NCBI GenBank assembly: GCA_947066955.1
Contig: CAMTAF010000005.1
Coordinates: forward strand, 1-63,855
Reading direction: 5' to 3'
From: an uncultured Hungatella sp.
Lineage (GTDB): Bacteria; Bacillota; Clostridia; Lachnospirales; Lachnospiraceae
DNA length: 63,855 nt
Shown: piece by piece, positions 4,177 through 63,732 of the stretch
Position numbering within the stretch: position 1 is the first letter of the stretch
Layout: each line of letters starts with the position of its first letter
Translations under genes and position numbers: made by a program
Notes under the pieces: model-generated
Databases searched by the model: none
What the model was told of the DNA's origin: nothing
The model's input: only the letters and a program-made list of their open reading frames with translations

Positions 4177-4193
4177 AAATCATAGCAGACCTC

Positions 4194-4332
4194 CATGCGC
4201 CCGGCAGCGGATAGGCCGTTACGTGCGAAAGTCTGGCGCGCGTGGCGTACCCAGGGACATGCCGTAATACAGGCTTTTGCGGAGCGGGCGCACTCTGTGC
4301 CGTATGGAAGATGCCGCTTCGCGGCCCTGTTT
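4194..4332 (+). repeat. Family C interspersed repeat
   Basis: G+C-rich block opening with TGCGCCCGGCAG, then GATA, and later GTCTGGCGCGCG. The same opening and order recur twice at 27184-27337. It lies in the 4084-4519 gap between the regulator and the SH3 lipoprotein; the rest of that gap is A+T-rich promoter DNA. Several short inverted repeats are visible (for example GCGCCCGGC near the start and GAGCGGGCGCA near the end). Its role is unknown. Confidence 0.6.
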
Positions 4333-12963: not shown

Positions 12964-13004
12964 AAAGCGGCGTGATCCCTATAAAAGGGGTTACGCCGCT
13001 TTTT
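12962..13004 (+). terminator. Intrinsic terminator of ftsH
   Basis: AAAAAGCGGCGT and ACGCCGCTTTTT arms (12962-12979 with 12987-13004) flank a short loop, ending in T5. A family A repeat starts at the next base. Confidence 0.92.
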
Positions 13005-24429: not shown

Positions 24430-24495
24430 CAGGCAGCTTAAAACCGCGTTTCCGACGACATGGCAGGTGACGCAAAGCGGCGCGTGCCGATACCA
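24429..24495 (+). repeat. Family B structured repeat, shortened copy
   Basis: Carries TTCCGACGACATGGCAGGT and GCGGCGCGTGCCGATACC, matching the right two thirds of the dapF-dapL copy; the left hairpin is mostly missing. It lies between the iadA stop and the AGGAGG of the YfcC gene. Confidence 0.7.
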
Positions 24496-26031: not shown

Positions 26032-26113
26032 GCTTGATCCGGCGGGCCGGCGTCACAGACGGCTGGTATCTCAGCGGTCACAGCGGTTAAGGGGAGAATC
26101 GTTGAAAATGATG

Positions 26114-26165
26114 GCAGAGGGGCTGTCGCGAAATGACAAACGTCGTTTCACGACAGCCCCTCTGC
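26114..26165 (+). terminator. Long inverted repeat between the YfcC gene and the J-domain gene
   Basis: GCAGAGGGGCTGTCG (26114-26128) pairs fully with 26151-26165, and GAAATGAC/GTCGTTTC extends the helix to about 24 bp around a 4-nt loop. There is no T-run, so it may be a bidirectional terminator or a repeat remnant between converging genes. Confidence 0.6.
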
Positions 26166-26200
26166 TATGGACAGGAGGAAGGCAAATGGGTCGCGATGGT

Positions 26201-26800: not shown

Positions 26801-27181
26801 ATGACAGAGCATGAGAGAATCGAACAGGAAGTGCAGGAGGGTGTCTGTGAATTTATGCATGTCCACCAGGAGATCGTGGATAAGGTGGAGAAGGTACTGC
26901 CGGATGAGCAGCAGCTTCTGGATCTGTCGGAGTTTTTTAAAGTGTTCGGCGATTCGACCAGGATCAAGATCCTGTATGTTTTAAGCCAGTCGGAGATGTG
27001 CGTCTGCGACATCGCCACGCTGCTGCAGATGGGGCAGTCCGCCATCTCTCACCAGCTGCGGGTGTTAAAGCAGATGAGGCTGGTAAAATTCCGCAGAGAC
27101 GGGAAGACTGTATTTTACTCCTTATCCGACGACCATATCCAGACCATCCTGGCTCAGGGTATGGAGCATATCAGCGAGTAA
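26801..27181 (+). CDS. ArsR/SmtB family metal-responsive repressor
   Basis: 126 residues from the ATG at 26801. Winged helix with the alpha-3 metal motif SQSEMCVCDIATLLQMGQSAISHQLRVLKQMRLV, in which the C-V-C pair is the ArsR/CadC-type site, and a C-terminal His (DDHIQTILAQGMEH) in the alpha-5 region. It should repress itself and the following metal ATPase until Zn, Cd or a similar ion binds. A His/Glu-rich N-terminal extension could also bind metal. Confidence 0.88.
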   Translation: MTEHERIEQEVQEGVCEFMHVHQEIVDKVEKVLPDEQQLLDLSEFFKVFGDSTRIKILYVLSQSEMCVCDIATLLQMGQSAISHQLRVLKQMRLVKFRRDGKTVFYSLSDDHIQTILAQGMEHISE

Positions 27182-27183
27182 AG

Positions 27184-27337
27184 CCTTTGTGCGCCCGGCA
27201 GCTGATATACTGCTGTATTAGGAAAAGTTTGGCGCGCGCACTTGGCATACCTGAATACAGATCGCCTTTGGCGATGGAATTATCAGGGGAAACCTTTGTG
27301 CGCCCGGCAGTAGATATGCTGCTGTAAAGAAAAGTGA
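27184..27337 (+). repeat. Family C repeat bounded by two direct copies
   Basis: CCTTTGTGCGCCCGGCAG followed by GATAT and CTGCTGTA occurs at 27184-27218 and again at 27293-27327, with GGCGCGCG and an ATCGCC-TTT-GGCGAT hairpin in between. It lies between repressor and ATPase genes and ends just before the ATPase ribosome site. Compare 4194-4332. Confidence 0.7.
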
Positions 27338-33531: not shown

Positions 33532-34332
33532 ATGAGATTTACAAAGATGCAGGGGGCAGGCAACGATTATGTGTATGTCAACTGCTTTGAGGAGACGGTG
33601 GAGGACCCGGCGGCAGCAGCTATCCTTGTGAGCCACAGGCGTTTCGGCGTAGGCTCTGACGGCCTGGTGCTGATCTGCCCTTCCGACACTGCAGATGTGA
33701 AGATGAGGATGTTCAATGCCGACGGCTCCGAGGGGAGCATGTGCGGCAACGCCATCCGGTGTGTGGGAAAGTATGCCTGGGACCACGGGCTTGTGTCCTC
33801 CCCCAGGATAACCGTGGAGACATTAGACGGACTCAAGGCGCTGGACATGGAGACAGAGGATGGCAGGGTGGTCAGTGTCTCCGTGGATATGGGGATACCC
33901 GAGGTCACCTCCAAGGTGCCGGAACCCATCACGGTCCTTGGGGAGGAAAAAGAGTTTGTGGGAATCTCCGTGGGAAATCCTCACGCAGTATACTTCTGCC
34001 AGGACATTGATTCCCTGGAATTAGAGAAGATCGGCCCGGCCCATGAAAATCACAGCCGCTTTCCGGGGCGGGTGAACTCTGAGTTCGTCCAGGTGGTGGA
34101 CAGAGGCCATATCCGCATGAGAGTGTGGGAGAGAGGCAGCGGCGAGACCTGGGCCTGCGGCACCGGGGCCACAGCCAGCGCGGTGGCCGCCGCGCTCATG
34201 GGCTACACAGACCGCCAGGTGAGAGTATCCCTCAAAGGCGGTGATCTGGTGATCACATGGGACAGAGAGTCCGGCCATGTGTTCATGGCAGGGCCTGCCG
34301 TTGAAGTATTTTCAGGAGAGATCAAGGTTTAG
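33532..34332 (+). CDS. dapF: Diaminopimelate epimerase
   Basis: 266 residues. The two catalytic Cys lie in SMCGNAIRCVG (about residue 70) and WACGTGATASA; the start has KMQGAGNDYVYVN. It converts LL- to meso-diaminopimelate for lysine and peptidoglycan. The start overlaps the end of the ANTAR gene region by spacing only 14 nt. The stop codon TAG is the first part of the family B repeat that follows. Confidence 0.96.
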   Translation: MRFTKMQGAGNDYVYVNCFEETVEDPAAAAILVSHRRFGVGSDGLVLICPSDTADVKMRMFNADGSEGSMCGNAIRCVGKYAWDHGLVSSPRITVETLDGLKALDMETEDGRVVSVSVDMGIPEVTSKVPEPITVLGEEKEFVGISVGNPHAVYFCQDIDSLELEKIGPAHENHSRFPGRVNSEFVQVVDRGHIRMRVWERGSGETWACGTGATASAVAAALMGYTDRQVRVSLKGGDLVITWDRESGHVFMAGPAVEVFSGEIKV

Positions 34333-34430
34333 GAGGAAGACAAACGCGCAGCGTTTTTAGGATGTCTTCCGACGACGTGGCAGGTGCCGCAGAGCGGCGC
34401 GTGCCGTTACCGAAAAATTAGGAGGAAGAC
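34329..34430 (+). repeat. Family B structured repeat between dapF and dapL, with 13-bp direct flanks
   Basis: The block begins TTAGGAGGAAGAC (34329-34341) and the same 13 bases recur at 34418-34430, where they supply the dapL ribosome site. Between them are AAACGC-GCA-GCGTTT, a GGAAGAC/GTCTTCC helix around it, and TGCCGC-AGA-GCGGCG. The left flank provides the dapF stop codon. Related copies lie at 60853 and 62262 (minus strand) and 24429. Confidence 0.85.
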
Positions 34431-59022: not shown

Positions 59023-59060
59023 AAGGCTTTTCGAGGTGTGAGACTTCGAAAAGCCTTTAT
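59023..59060 (+). terminator. Intrinsic terminator behind tRNA-Thr
   Basis: AAGGCTTTTCGA (59023-59034) pairs perfectly with TCGAAAAGCCTT (59046-59057), followed by TATTT. Confidence 0.93.
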
Positions 59061-59061
59061 T

Positions 59062-59150
59062 TATGCGCACGGGCCCTGAAAGGAGTTTTACCAGCAAAAG
59101 CTGGCCGGGGCCTGGCACGACGAGTAGGGAGAAAGCCTCCCATACTCGAA
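59062..59150 (+). repeat. Family A2 structured repeat
   Basis: Starts TATGCGCACGGGCCC directly after the tRNA-Thr terminator. CCAGC-AAAA-GCTGG forms the inner hairpin and GGCC/GGGGCC the outer arm, then GAGTAGGGAG/CTCCCATACTC. Confidence 0.78.
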
Positions 59151-59241: not shown

Positions 59242-59562
59242 ATGTTGGCAGTAAAAAGCATGGATGTACGTGAAAATTTTAAGGAATGGTGTAATAAAGT
59301 CATTGGCGGGGAAACGCTTATTGTATCAAGGCCTAAAAATGAAAATGTAGTAATTGTATCCGAAAAAGAGTATAACGAAATGGCGAAAGCAAAACACAAT
59401 GCGGAGTATCTAGCCATGCTGGACAAAAGTTTTAAGCAACTGGAGGAAGGGAAAACCATATCTTTCAGCATGGAAGAATTGCGGGCAATGGAATCTGATG
59501 ATTGGAAACCTACGCAAAAAGTATTAAATTGGATGAAGCAGATGGAGCAGGAAAATGAATGA
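59242..59562 (+). CDS. yefM: YefM/Phd family antitoxin
   Basis: 106 residues. The N-terminal Phd fold (MDVRENFKEWCNKVIGGETLIVSRPKNENVVIVSEKEYNEM) binds DNA; the rest is a flexible, acidic segment that should hold the toxin. The ribosome site is GTGAGGTGATG. It overlaps the toxin start by 8 nt. Base composition is clearly A+T-richer than neighbours, as expected of a transferred module. Confidence 0.88.
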   Translation: MLAVKSMDVRENFKEWCNKVIGGETLIVSRPKNENVVIVSEKEYNEMAKAKHNAEYLAMLDKSFKQLEEGKTISFSMEELRAMESDDWKPTQKVLNWMKQMEQENE

Positions 59563-59818
59563 TTTAACTTTTACAGATAAAGGTTTTGCTGACTATGTAT
59601 ATTGGCAATTTGAAGACAGGAAAACCGTTAAGCGAATCAATAATCTGTTAGAAGATATTAAACGAAACGGAGTAATGCAAGGAATCGGAAAACCTGAACC
59701 ATTAAAGCATCGTCCTGGATATTCCAGACGGATTGATGAAAAGAATCGGTTAGTGTACGATATTGATGAATTACAAAATATCAAAATTATATCGTGCAAA
59801 GGCCATTATGATGATTAA
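59555..59818 (+). CDS. yoeB: YoeB family toxin, ribosome-dependent mRNA interferase
   Basis: 87 residues, the usual size. RelE/YoeB fold: a DRKTVKRINNLLEDIKRNG helix, GIGKPEPLKHRPGYSRRIDEKNRLVYDI and the C-terminal GHYDD, with catalytic His and Tyr matching the HY of E. coli YoeB, plus the basic Arg in SRRI. It cleaves mRNA at the ribosome when the antitoxin is lost. Confidence 0.92.
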   Translation: MNDLTFTDKGFADYVYWQFEDRKTVKRINNLLEDIKRNGVMQGIGKPEPLKHRPGYSRRIDEKNRLVYDIDELQNIKIISCKGHYDD

Positions 59819-59827
59819 GAGCAAAAA

Positions 59828-59897: not shown

Positions 59898-60830
59898 TCA
59901 GCAGTGCGTGGCCACCAGCTCCATAGCTCCCTGAGCATGGATTACGCCGTAGCCGGAGGGCGCCAGGATGTGATCCCCGGCCTTTACCTCATACTTGTCT
60001 AAAAAGCCGCTTCCCGCGGTGACGTCGATGAGCATGAAAGGATAATTCTGGCTGATGGCCGCATGGGTTTTCACGTTCCAGCAGTTTACGGTAAAATAGG
60101 GGCCTGCCACCAATGTGCACACCTGATAGCCGTTGTGCTCCTCTGTCTTCCCTCTGGTGTCTTGTTCCGTGTACGGACAGGTGATGACATCCAGGCTCTG
60201 CTTTAAATGAAGCTGTCTGGGCCTGCCGTTCTGGAGGCGGCCATAATCATAGAGGCGGTAGGTTGTATCGCTGTTCTGCTGGACCTCCAACAGCAGGGTG
60301 CCTTTGCGGATGGCGTGGACCGTGCCTGAGGGGATGTAGAAAAAGTCGCCTTTATGGATGGGGAATCTTCTGAGAAGAGAGTCCCACTGGCCGTTCTTTA
60401 CCATATTCTCCAGCTCCTCGCGGCTTTTTGCATGATGTCCGATGATGATGTCCGCGTCTTTGTCACAGTCTAAGATGTACCAGCATTCCGTCTTTCCCTG
60501 GCTGCCGTTCTCGTGAACCTGTGCGTAGGCGTTGTCCGGGTGTACCTGGATACTGAGGTGGTCGTTGGCATCAATGATCTTTACCAGAAGGGGAAATTCC
60601 CTTCCCTCCATGCCCCCGAACAGCTCCCGGTGCTGGTCCCACAGCTGCCCTAAACTCTGTCCCTTATAAATGCCGCCCCGGACCGTGCTCTGACCGTTGG
60701 GATTGGCGCTGATGACCCACGCTTCCCCTGTGTCGTCGCCTGGGATGGGATATCCGTAGGTCTCCCTCATCCTGTGGCCGCCCCAGAGGACTTGTTTAAA
60801 GAAAGGGTTAAAAAAGATAAGTTCATTCAT
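59898..60830 (-). CDS. manA: Mannose-6-phosphate isomerase, class I
   Basis: 310 residues from the ATG at 60830 (AGGAG upstream). Cupin metalloenzyme: LVKIIDANDHLSIQVHPDN with the zinc His and Gln, GKTECWYILD with its Glu, and YIPSGTVHAIRKGTLLLEVQQNSDTTYRLYDYGR. It interconverts mannose-6-P and fructose-6-P. In this operon it may also act on other phospho-sugars released by the GH1 enzyme. Confidence 0.93.
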   Translation of the reverse strand: MNELIFFNPFFKQVLWGGHRMRETYGYPIPGDDTGEAWVISANPNGQSTVRGGIYKGQSLGQLWDQHRELFGGMEGREFPLLVKIIDANDHLSIQVHPDNAYAQVHENGSQGKTECWYILDCDKDADIIIGHHAKSREELENMVKNGQWDSLLRRFPIHKGDFFYIPSGTVHAIRKGTLLLEVQQNSDTTYRLYDYGRLQNGRPRQLHLKQSLDVITCPYTEQDTRGKTEEHNGYQVCTLVAGPYFTVNCWNVKTHAAISQNYPFMLIDVTAGSGFLDKYEVKAGDHILAPSGYGVIHAQGAMELVATHC

Positions 60831-60852
60831 AGGAGACTCCTCCTTTATTAAG

Positions 60853-60933
60853 ATAACGGCATGCGCCGCTCTGCGGCACCTGCCAAGACGTCGGAAGGCA
60901 TGCTGAAAACGCTGCGCGTTTGTCTTCCTCCTA
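60853..60933 (-). repeat. Family B structured repeat between EIIC and manA
   Basis: Minus strand: TAGGAGGAAGACAAACGC opens it and supplies the EIIC stop codon TAG. AAACGC-GCA-GCGTTT, then GCCTTCC, and TGCCGC-AGA-GCGGCG follow, as in the dapF-dapL copy. Confidence 0.85.
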
Positions 60934-62244
60934 GTTTTCAGAACCGGCCTGCTGCTCCATAAGCCGGTCATTAATTTTTACAAATGGCAGATACAACAGC
61001 ACGCCGATGACAATGATGAGAAGCTGAACGATCACTGCCCGGAAATCTCCTCCTGTAGCCAGATAGCCGCTTAACAGAGGCGGAGTGGTCCAGGGGATGT
61101 AGACAACACATTCGTTCATAAAGTTAAGAGCCGTGGCGGCGTAGCCGATGATGATGCCGATGGCGGGCAGAAGCACAAACGGGATGATCATAGTAATGTT
61201 GTAAACGATGGAGTAGCCAAAAATAACTGGCTCATTAATATTGAACAATCCCGGAGCCGCGGACATCTTGCAGATGGCCCTGGTAGCTTTATTGCGTCCA
61301 AAGAGCAAAGTGGCGATGATCAGGGCGATGGTAGAACCGGAGCCTCCCATCATGCCGAAGGCAGGCACAAAGGCCACATTGATGATATCGGCCACAGGCT
61401 CTCCTGCTGCGTACGACGCCATAGCCTGAGTCATATTGATGATCAGAAGAGGCTCCAGGATGGAACCGTAGATCACCGTCTGGTGAATACCGAACAGCCA
61501 CAGGAAATTGCCCAGGGAGTAGAGCAGCACACAGCCGAAGAGTCCGGTAGTGACACCTCTCAAAGGCTCCTGGATTACGGTTGTGATGATGGTGATCAGG
61601 TCTGTATGGAACACGTTGTGCAGGATGGCGGAAATGATTCCAAACAGCGACATCACCAGAATAAAGGGGATCAGTATGGAGAAAGATTTGCCCACAGCAG
61701 GGGGAATACTGTCCCCCATATTGATCTGAAGTTTTTTGATGCGCGCCACGTAGACAAACAGCTCTGTAGCAGCCAGCCCAATGAGGATGCCGGCAAACAT
61801 GGCCTGAGTGCCTACATTGCTGAAGGTCAGGACTCCAGACACGGTCACGGCCTCAGAAGCTCCCACCGGCGTGACGCTGACAGAGCCCGGCATCATAACA
61901 ATCAGGGAAGCAAGAGAAACCAGGGCAGCGGCGACAGGATTGTCATAGCCTCTGTTCCGGGAGAGGCAGTAGCCGATGATTGTGGCAATCAACAGAGAGC
62001 TGATGTTCAAGGTTCCGTTGACCAGCATGTTGCCCCAGTACTGGGCACTCTCCAAAGCGGGGCCGCTTAAGATCCACTGGAATATCGTGTTGTTGAACAG
62101 CACCGCCAGACCTGCCAGTATATAGAGAGGCATGATGGTGGCAAAGGCGTCCCGAAGAGAGCTTAAGTGGATCTGGCTGCCAAGCTTTGCCGCGAATTCT
62201 GTAAATTTATCTACAAATTTTGAATTTTCTAAAGAACTTCCCAT
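60931..62244 (-). CDS. celB: PTS cellobiose/beta-glucoside EIIC permease
   Basis: 437 residues, about ten membrane helices. The lactose/cellobiose EIIC pattern includes LYILAGLAVLFNNTIFQWIL, GDSIPPAVGKSF, LGNFLWLFGIHQTVIYG and FNINEPVIFGYSIVYN. It carries a beta-glucoside in with phosphorylation. EIIA and EIIB are not in the window, so they must be supplied from elsewhere. Confidence 0.92.
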   Translation of the reverse strand: MGSSLENSKFVDKFTEFAAKLGSQIHLSSLRDAFATIMPLYILAGLAVLFNNTIFQWILSGPALESAQYWGNMLVNGTLNISSLLIATIIGYCLSRNRGYDNPVAAALVSLASLIVMMPGSVSVTPVGASEAVTVSGVLTFSNVGTQAMFAGILIGLAATELFVYVARIKKLQINMGDSIPPAVGKSFSILIPFILVMSLFGIISAILHNVFHTDLITIITTVIQEPLRGVTTGLFGCVLLYSLGNFLWLFGIHQTVIYGSILEPLLIINMTQAMASYAAGEPVADIINVAFVPAFGMMGGSGSTIALIIATLLFGRNKATRAICKMSAAPGLFNINEPVIFGYSIVYNITMIIPFVLLPAIGIIIGYAATALNFMNECVVYIPWTTPPLLSGYLATGGDFRAVIVQLLIIVIGVLLYLPFVKINDRLMEQQAGSEN

Positions 62245-62261
62245 GTCAATCCTCCTTTTTT

Positions 62262-62344
62262 CGTTATGGGCACGCGGCGCTTCGCGCCACCTGCCAGTAC
62301 GTCGGAAGGCATCTTAAAAACGCTACGCGTTTGCCTTCCTCCTA
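62262..62344 (-). repeat. Family B structured repeat between the GH1 gene and EIIC
   Basis: Minus strand: AGGAGGAAGGCAAACGCG-TAGCGTTTT, then GCCTTCC, then GGCGC-GAA-GCGCC. Compared with the dapF copy, GGAAGAC/GTCTTCC is changed to GGAAGGC/GCCTTCC and GCCGC/GCGGC to GGCGC/GCGCC: both arms changed together. Its left end encodes the last residues and stop of the GH1 gene. Confidence 0.85.
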
Positions 62345-63732
62345 TCCCTCTGCTCGATGAGGTTTTTGATCCAGTGGGCAGATTTCTTTAACCTGCGTGA
62401 ATAGTTGTCCATGAGATCCACCTCGATAAATCCATATCGATTCTTAAAAGCATTGGCCCAGGACCAGTTGTCGATGACGCCCCAGTAGTGGTAACCTACG
62501 CAGTTGGCTCCCTCCTCGATGGATTTCATAACCCACTTTAAGTGGTCCTCTACGAATTCAATCCGGTAGTCATCCTGAATCTCGCCGCTTGCGTCCCGGA
62601 AGCGCTCCTCGTGTTCAACTCCCATGCCGTTCTCGGAGATGAAGAACTTCATATCCGGGTATTCTCGCTTCATCTTCATGCCGAAATCGTAGATTCCCTT
62701 GGGGTAGATCTCCCATCCCCGATAAATATTCATCTTTCTCTCAGGCCAGATGTAGGGGTCTGCGAACTTGGGATAGCCGGCCTCGTCCGTCTTTGTCAGA
62801 GGGGCCTGAACACGGTTTGGCTGATAATAATTAAACCCTAGCCAGTCTACCTGACCGCACTTTAAGATCTCCTGGTCGCCCGGGCGAGTCTCGGGAGCCA
62901 GCCCACAGTCCTTTAAGGTATCCAGCACATCCTGAGGCAGTGTCCCGGAAGTACACAGATCCAGCCACCAGCGGTTTTGGATACCATCGGTCATCCGGAC
63001 AGCCTCTAGATCCTCAGGAGAGGGATTTTCTCTGGTATAAGGAGGAGCGAAAGCGTTGATCAGCCCAATCTGAGCATCAGGCATCATGTATCCTTCTTCC
63101 TTGGCCTTGTTAAATTCGCGGACAGCCAGACTGTGGGCCAGAGATATGTGGTACTGTACCTGCATTCCCTTTTTGGGATCCTTGATAAACGGATACCACA
63201 CGCCATGGCGATATTCCTGATCCGGTTCCACGATGGGCTCGTTAAAGGTGAACCAACAGCGGATCTCCTTGCCAAACTCTCTGAAGGCGGTTCTGGCGTA
63301 GGTGGCATAAGCTTCCACCACTTCCCGGTTCAGCCAGCCCCCTCTGGCAAACAGATAGGCAGGCATGTCAAAATGGTACAGATTCATGAACAGCTCGATC
63401 TGATTTTCCTTTGCGCAGGCGCAGACCTTGTGGTAAAAGGCCGCTCCCAGAGGATTCAGCTTCTGATCCTGATCCATGAGGCGGGTCCACTGCATGGAGG
63501 TTCGGAAAGAGTCCAAATGGAGGCTCTTAAGGAGTTTGATGTCCTCCTCATACTTCTCGTAAAAATTGTTGCCCACATAGCTGCCCACCTTGTTGTAAAA
63601 ATCGGAGATGGAGAGATCAGACCAGTGATCCCAAAAGCTCTCCAGCCGGTTGTCTTTCTTGTAAGCACCTTCTGTCTGAGGACCGGACATGGCAGCACCC
63701 ATGAAGAAATTTTCTGGAAGTGAAACTTGCAT
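62323..63732 (-). CDS. bglA: Glycoside hydrolase family 1, 6-phospho-beta-glucosidase
   Basis: 469 residues. TIM-barrel GH1: FMGAAMSGPQTEGAY start, acid/base Glu in WFTFNEPIVEPDQ and nucleophile Glu in FFISENGMG. It should hydrolyse phosphorylated beta-glucosides delivered by the adjacent EIIC. The last five codons (K-A-N-A region, stop TAG) lie inside a family B repeat, so the C-terminus was altered by it. Cytosolic. Confidence 0.92.
   Translation of the reverse strand: MQVSLPENFFMGAAMSGPQTEGAYKKDNRLESFWDHWSDLSISDFYNKVGSYVGNNFYEKYEEDIKLLKSLHLDSFRTSMQWTRLMDQDQKLNPLGAAFYHKVCACAKENQIELFMNLYHFDMPAYLFARGGWLNREVVEAYATYARTAFREFGKEIRCWFTFNEPIVEPDQEYRHGVWYPFIKDPKKGMQVQYHISLAHSLAVREFNKAKEEGYMMPDAQIGLINAFAPPYTRENPSPEDLEAVRMTDGIQNRWWLDLCTSGTLPQDVLDTLKDCGLAPETRPGDQEILKCGQVDWLGFNYYQPNRVQAPLTKTDEAGYPKFADPYIWPERKMNIYRGWEIYPKGIYDFGMKMKREYPDMKFFISENGMGVEHEERFRDASGEIQDDYRIEFVEDHLKWVMKSIEEGANCVGYHYWGVIDNWSWANAFKNRYGFIEVDLMDNYSRRLKKSAHWIKNLIEQRDRRKANA

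Follow-up and report, generated by a model that had tools for sequence, protein, structure and literature searches.

BOX, RUP, Correia and ERIC are MITE-like repeats of bacteria: non-autonomous, multi-copy, intergenic and structured. The mobile GC clusters of yeast mitochondria are short hairpins that have small fixed target sequences and form tandem arrays, and the mechanism of their movement is not known. REPs are single hairpins of 21-65 nts that have a GT[AG]G foot and come with a RAYT gene, and their hairpins reportedly raise mRNA stability (PMC6006769). The Rfam entry GA-cis (RF02987), filed as a candidate RNA, has the same sequence and two-hairpin structure as the repeats that we analyze here. 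Mobility, insertion locked to the SD, tandem arrays and a copy burst are not described in that entry. The original description of GA-cis is reportedly that of Weinberg et al. 2017. In the open literature that we searched, GA-cis is named only in the Rfam 15 paper, and a literature search on similar elements, including mobile GC clusters, found no relevant report.

The window, by which we mean the whole stretch of DNA that was analyzed, is 63,855 nts of contig CAMTAF010000005.1 (GCA_947066955.1) from an uncultured Hungatella sp., a gut bacterium in the Lachnospiraceae. A preliminary description placed three copies of a “family B” repeat, all sense to transcription, at dapF/dapL, EIIC/manA and bglA/EIIC, and we find near-full copies at these three junctions (Table 1). 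A fourth copy is partial, with a diverged hairpin 1 and an intact linker and hairpin 2, and it is missing from a syntenic relative (L225). Pfam backs the gene names (DAP epimerase, class I/II aminotransferase, PTS EIIC, GH1 and type I phosphomannose isomerase), where the class I/II aminotransferase is read as DapL by genomic context. The description also had two copies supply the TAG stop of the preceding gene. This is the case for dapF and EIIC, whose stops are made of a native T and the AG of the element, and bglA also ends on a TAG of the element.

Table 1. Coordinates of GA-cis copies, SDs and stop codons in the window.
Feature	Position	Strand	Basis or remark
Partial GA-cis copy before DcuC-family gene	24449..24494	+	Repeat comparison, HMM match, Pfam DcuC
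GA-cis element, dapF/dapL	34328..34415	+	RF02987, 43.4 bits, above gathering score
dapF TAG stop, formed at the element's AGGAGG edge	34330..34332	+	Sequence
dapL SD AGGAGG, directly 3' of element	34420..34425	+	Sequence
manA SD AGGAGG, directly 3' of element	60839..60844	-	Sequence
GA-cis element, EIIC/manA, two hairpins	60848..60935	-	5' AGGAGG edge is the high-coordinate end; fold
EIIC TAG stop, formed at the element's AGGAGG edge	60931..60933	-	Sequence
EIIC SD AGGAGG, directly 3' of element	62251..62256	-	Sequence
GA-cis element, bglA/EIIC	62259..62346	-	80% identity to EIIC/manA copy; fold; alignment
bglA TAG stop, within element, hairpin-1 loop	62323..62325	-	Sequence

The family B repeats belong to the Rfam family GA-cis, whose RNA has two hairpins and covaries strongly. 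The gathering score of the RF02987 covariance model is 34.7 bits. The EIIC/manA copy falls under it with 30.6 bits and the bglA/EIIC copy is not among the matches listed; both are close homologues of GA-cis copies that pass the cut-off. The EIIC/manA and dapF/dapL copies are 93% identical over 80 nts, and the bglA/EIIC copy folds with -40.5 kcal/mol (z of -3.4). In this genome and its congeners, GA-cis matches reach 73.7 bits, and the likeness spans the full 88 positions of the family. An overlap with RgsA at 60780-60967 has a score far below the cut-off, and we judged it to be due to chance.

The element starts with (T)AGGAGGA, followed by hairpin 1 (GGAAGGC...GCCTTCC enclosing AAACGC-GCGTTT), a single-stranded and near-invariant CCGACGA linker, hairpin 2 (GGCA..GCCGC/GCGGC..TGCC), a GATACC-like end and a short A-rich tail, after which come AGGAGG and the start codon. 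The paired arm changes that had been reported between window copies are real: the dapF copy has GGAAGAC/GTCTTCC and GCCGC/GCGGC where the bglA copy has GGAAGGC/GCCTTCC and GGCGC/GCGCC, and the EIIC/manA copy is intermediate, with GGAAGAC facing GCCTTCC. These changes are instances of a family-wide covariation. In an alignment of 35 copies, taken from the host and from other genomes of the genus, two-sided changes occur in 14 of 24 pairs (78 cells in all, compared to 21.0 +- 5.0 in shuffles). The covariation score is 0.262; shuffles score 0.106, and sliding the 3' partners gives no more than 0.143. The consensus two-hairpin structure has 89.7% of the cells paired, with two-sided changes in all three helices. 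In 5 of the 35 aligned copies, hairpin 1 is swapped for a longer and different inverted repeat, as in TTGTGAAAC-GCA-GTTTCACAA and TTGGGAAAC-GAA-GTTTCCCAA.

The window holds other repeats. A second interspersed family (GCGCACGGGCCC...CCAGCAAAAGCTGG...) appears at 59055-59150 (+), with related copies near 12995, 47986 (-), 6082 and 42696; the genome has at least 43 matches to it, some of them adjoining on one contig (C58). A third family (TTTGTGCGCCCGGCAG...) has two tandem-like copies at 27181-27330 (+), another at 4187-4223, and 26 genome matches. At 26111-26200, a near-perfect 27-nt inverted repeat precedes ACAGGAGGAAGGCAAATGGG, a sequence similar to the GA-cis 5' edge (a weak HMM match, E of 2.7). 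Two small adjoining ORFs at 59243-59819 (+) resemble by eye a putative antitoxin-toxin pair of the YefM/YoeB type.

An HMM search of 1.225 Mb of the same genome (33 stretches, some of them picked because they hold copies) found 114 copies at 90 sites, 79 of which are classifiable using gene calls from a simple codon-usage caller that was built for this analysis and may be wrong in single cases. At 78 of the 79, the element lies on the sense strand directly upstream of a gene start, and the sole exception in orientation is a decayed copy. Random orientation and location, which the preliminary description had set as the outcome that would speak against it, did not occur. Its placement of the element just before the next ribosome site also holds. 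The SD beside the element is AGGAGG in 88% of the cases, compared to 23% at other genes. The sequence AGGAGGAAGGC, which is the element's own 5' sequence, serves as the SD in 12% of the cases beside elements and in 0.2% elsewhere. What did not hold as a rule is a position inside operons. Same-strand and divergent sites stand at 63:15, the same ratio as for gene starts overall (770:202), thus operons are not preferred as such, and the rule of placement is directly in front of an SD, not in the interior of an operon.

The occurrence of the hexamer alone does not account for the location. Intergenic AGGAGG followed by a start codon and an ORF carries an element in 63 of 273 cases, while intergenic AGGAGG without a start is almost empty, with 2 of 110 (Fisher p = 2e-8). 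The stop codon of the upstream gene is inside the element at 16 of 63 co-directional sites and at its 5' edge at another 19 of the 63, as expected if an SD overlapping the previous gene was split. An independent set, from a pattern scan of GTDB genomes of other Lachnospiraceae (including Butyrivibrio, Hungatella and Enterocloster records), has a sense start within 60 nts at 49 of 59 sites, 46 of them with an SD, compared to 14 of 59 sites with a start in the reverse direction, one of them with an SD. There the start codon is typically 19-26 nts past the element, with a median of 22 nts. The scan shows that the family is wider than one genus. For same-genus loci, the sense count is 20 of 29 and the opposite one is 3 of 29.

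The host genome has about 120 copies above the Rfam-model cut-off. With a model built in this analysis it has at least 150, as all 150 scored candidates match (at most 150 candidates per genome were scored, making the counts lower bounds). A density of 54 copies per Mb across twelve contigs (643 kb, including the window's own) extrapolates to approximately 230 copies in 4.2 Mb. For 25 other species of the genus, 0-13 copies were detected in each, compared to the at least 150 in the host; ten of these congeners have none detected at E <= 1e-6 (26 genomes compared including the host), and one (G006) has 6 copies in 769 kb. A search with the Rfam model of 16 genomes from other families in the order had zero matches. 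These counts show a burst of copies in the host genome. Some contigs of this genome end within GA-cis copies (C6:2-35 and C10:1-32), so the repeat probably breaks the assembly.

Comparison with congeners, using one genome per species, identifies at least three junctions with an empty site, where the native SD is cut such that X-AGGAGG-Y becomes X-[AGGAGG-element]-AGGAGG-Y. At bglA/EIIC, seven congeners read GAGAGACAAGGAGGATTAATATG or similar with no element, their SD being within the 3' end of bglA or just past it, and the host has the same flanks around the element. At an ABC-transporter junction (on contig C27), congener G006 reads CACCATGAAGATGAGGAGGAAATTGAGTGATGAAA, while the host has CACCATGAAG, three units, and then AGGAGGAAGAGATAGAGTGATGAAG; from these flanks no native codon was lost. 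The third case is a junction on contig C49. At all nine testable junctions, the best syntenic relative is without the element. Other copies persist. The dapF/dapL junction has a diverged copy in G006 and none in most other congeners, and the junction between a GntR-like gene and an ABC ATPase has GA-cis in four congeners (L131, L132, L133 and L138), where the number of tandem units goes from one to at least four. As far as the compared sequences go, sites mostly not conserved among congeners show putative recent insertions, and not fixed switches of particular genes. The EIIC/manA junction is more than a simple insertion, since relatives (L164-L166, L169 and L171) have there a terminator-like hairpin and a promoter-like stretch that are gone in the host (window 60831-60935). 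This loss may put manA under the bgl promoter.

Head-to-tail arrays occupy 21 of the 90 sites, 18 of them double and three triple. Units within an array are 93.7% identical, compared to 83.7% between arrays (0 of 2000 permutations), which argues that arrays grow or are homogenized locally.

We consider it probable that GA-cis copies are a small non-autonomous amplifying (mobile) element, inserted at SDs in sense orientation such that the site still has a working SD afterwards. Such an element explains the pattern better than a tuning of translation or of mRNA stability. A new copy would enter in sense orientation at the SD hexamer AGGAGG of a gene. The native 5' flank would remain on the left, followed by AGGAGG, hairpin 1, the CCGACGA linker, hairpin 2, GATACC and the short A-rich tail, and the right side would retain AGGAGG, the native spacer and the start codon, so that the downstream gene keeps a strong SD. 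The right-hand SD could be native or brought by the element, as its likeness to the element's 5' end allows either. Where an upstream gene overlaps that SD, its last codons would be replaced and its stop codon taken from the element. With AGGAGG left at both ends, head-to-tail arrays could form and be homogenized locally. We infer that copies spread by insertion, through a recombinase of some kind or microhomology-driven copying, and that the fitness effects are near neutral. Beyond AGGAGG, the per-position similarity of the two flanks is at chance, and a longer target-site duplication was rejected. A reverse transcriptase as the mobilizer was rejected, with two matches in the host, 13 in a genome with few elements (G003), and no trend with copy number.

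More tentatively, GA-cis could be what is seen of an undescribed insertion system for which the SD itself serves as attachment site, acting on DNA via a recombinase or at the mRNA level. If so, the sense orientation and the survival of the downstream gene would follow from the mechanism itself and not from selection, and the attachment site would be one that occurs before many genes.

An unlikely alternative to an amplifying element is a cis-regulatory RNA that selection keeps for its control of translation initiation at the next gene, for instance by a trans factor on the CCGACGA linker. The tight spacing to the start codon, the compensatory changes in the arms, the exclusive sense orientation, the near-invariant unpaired linker, the locus common to four congeners and the cis role suggested by the Rfam name are all in line with it. 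The downstream genes have no common theme: twenty sampled proteins bear no relation to one another (siroheme synthase-like, alanine racemase, NAPRTase, aconitase, LysR, flagellar rod, ABC transporters and others), and no shared function or pathway was found among these 20 and the window genes, which speaks against a metabolite riboswitch, for which a conserved association with genes of one pathway is required. In silico, the downstream SD has a mean unpaired probability of 0.46 next to the element and 0.47 next to a shuffled one, and of 0.37 when the element is deleted. A switch that hides or frees the SD is rejected by the near-equality of the first two values, and the third makes possible a general insulation against upstream pairing that would not be specific to the GA-cis sequence. 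The mostly unconserved sites, and the contrast between the host and congeners with few copies or, in 10 of the 26 genomes, none detected, also go against a selected regulator. The earlier suggestion that the element tunes translation of the next gene or mRNA stability thus finds no support in the unrelated downstream genes, the unchanged SD accessibility and the mostly unconserved sites, and an effect on expression of either kind is possibly secondary at most.

We give even less credence to an element of mRNA processing or stability, in which REP-like intercistronic hairpins set the segmental stability of the mRNA. The folds are stable, and a gain in mRNA stability has been reported for REP hairpins (PMC6006769), but a hairpin that acts on stability alone requires no sense orientation and no placement approximately 20 nts from the start codon, and at 15 of 78 sites the genes on the two sides are not co-directional. 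Most doubtful is a derivation from REP/RAYT or IS200/IS605, with both hairpins recognized as ssDNA by a Y1 transposase cutting at GGAG/GGAGG: the tetranucleotide-like GGAG at the foot of hairpin 1, the two subterminal hairpins, the arrays and the lack of target-site duplication past the target agree with it, but a search for the Y1 transposase (PF01797) had no match in the 92%-complete genome that holds the burst (the same search was positive in 6 of 14 control genomes), the foot is GGAG, where described REPs have GT[AG]G (PMC6006769), and no copy flanking a transposase was seen.

On the reading as an amplifying element, a catalogued and nearly unstudied RNA family would be a recently amplified repeat tied to ribosome-binding sites, which would change the reading of GA-cis and perhaps of other high-copy “cis-regulatory” motifs. 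With an SD on both sides and a stop for the previous gene, it shows a route by which a repeat can enter compact operons and leave the next gene intact. The approximately 230 natural insertions in one genome are a ready experiment on the interval between stop codon and SD.

Amongst the known systems, the yeast mitochondrial GC clusters are similar by analogy from their description (hairpins, short targets and arrays); they belong to an organelle and, unlike GA-cis, have no known link to the SD. REP/BIME repeats with RAYT (TnpA-REP) share with GA-cis that they are short, structured, interspersed, high-copy intergenic repeats, found as singles and in clusters, with a tetranucleotide-like foot. 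GA-cis differs from them in having two hairpins in 80-90 nts and an AGGAGG foot, in arrays that are head-to-tail only, and in a sense-only location at SDs. Membership in REP/RAYT was rejected by the genome's lack of a PF01797 match and by the foot, which is AGGAGG and not GTAG/GTGG. BOX, RUP, Correia and ERIC are like GA-cis in being non-autonomous, multi-copy, intergenic and structured. A MITE moved by a DDE transposase was rejected, as the flanks are alike only in AGGAGG and, by inspection, the ends are not mutual inverted repeats across variants. Compared to these four families, GA-cis lacks terminal inverted repeats, past AGGAGG it has no clear target-site duplication, and its orientation to the gene and its distance to the start codon are fixed.
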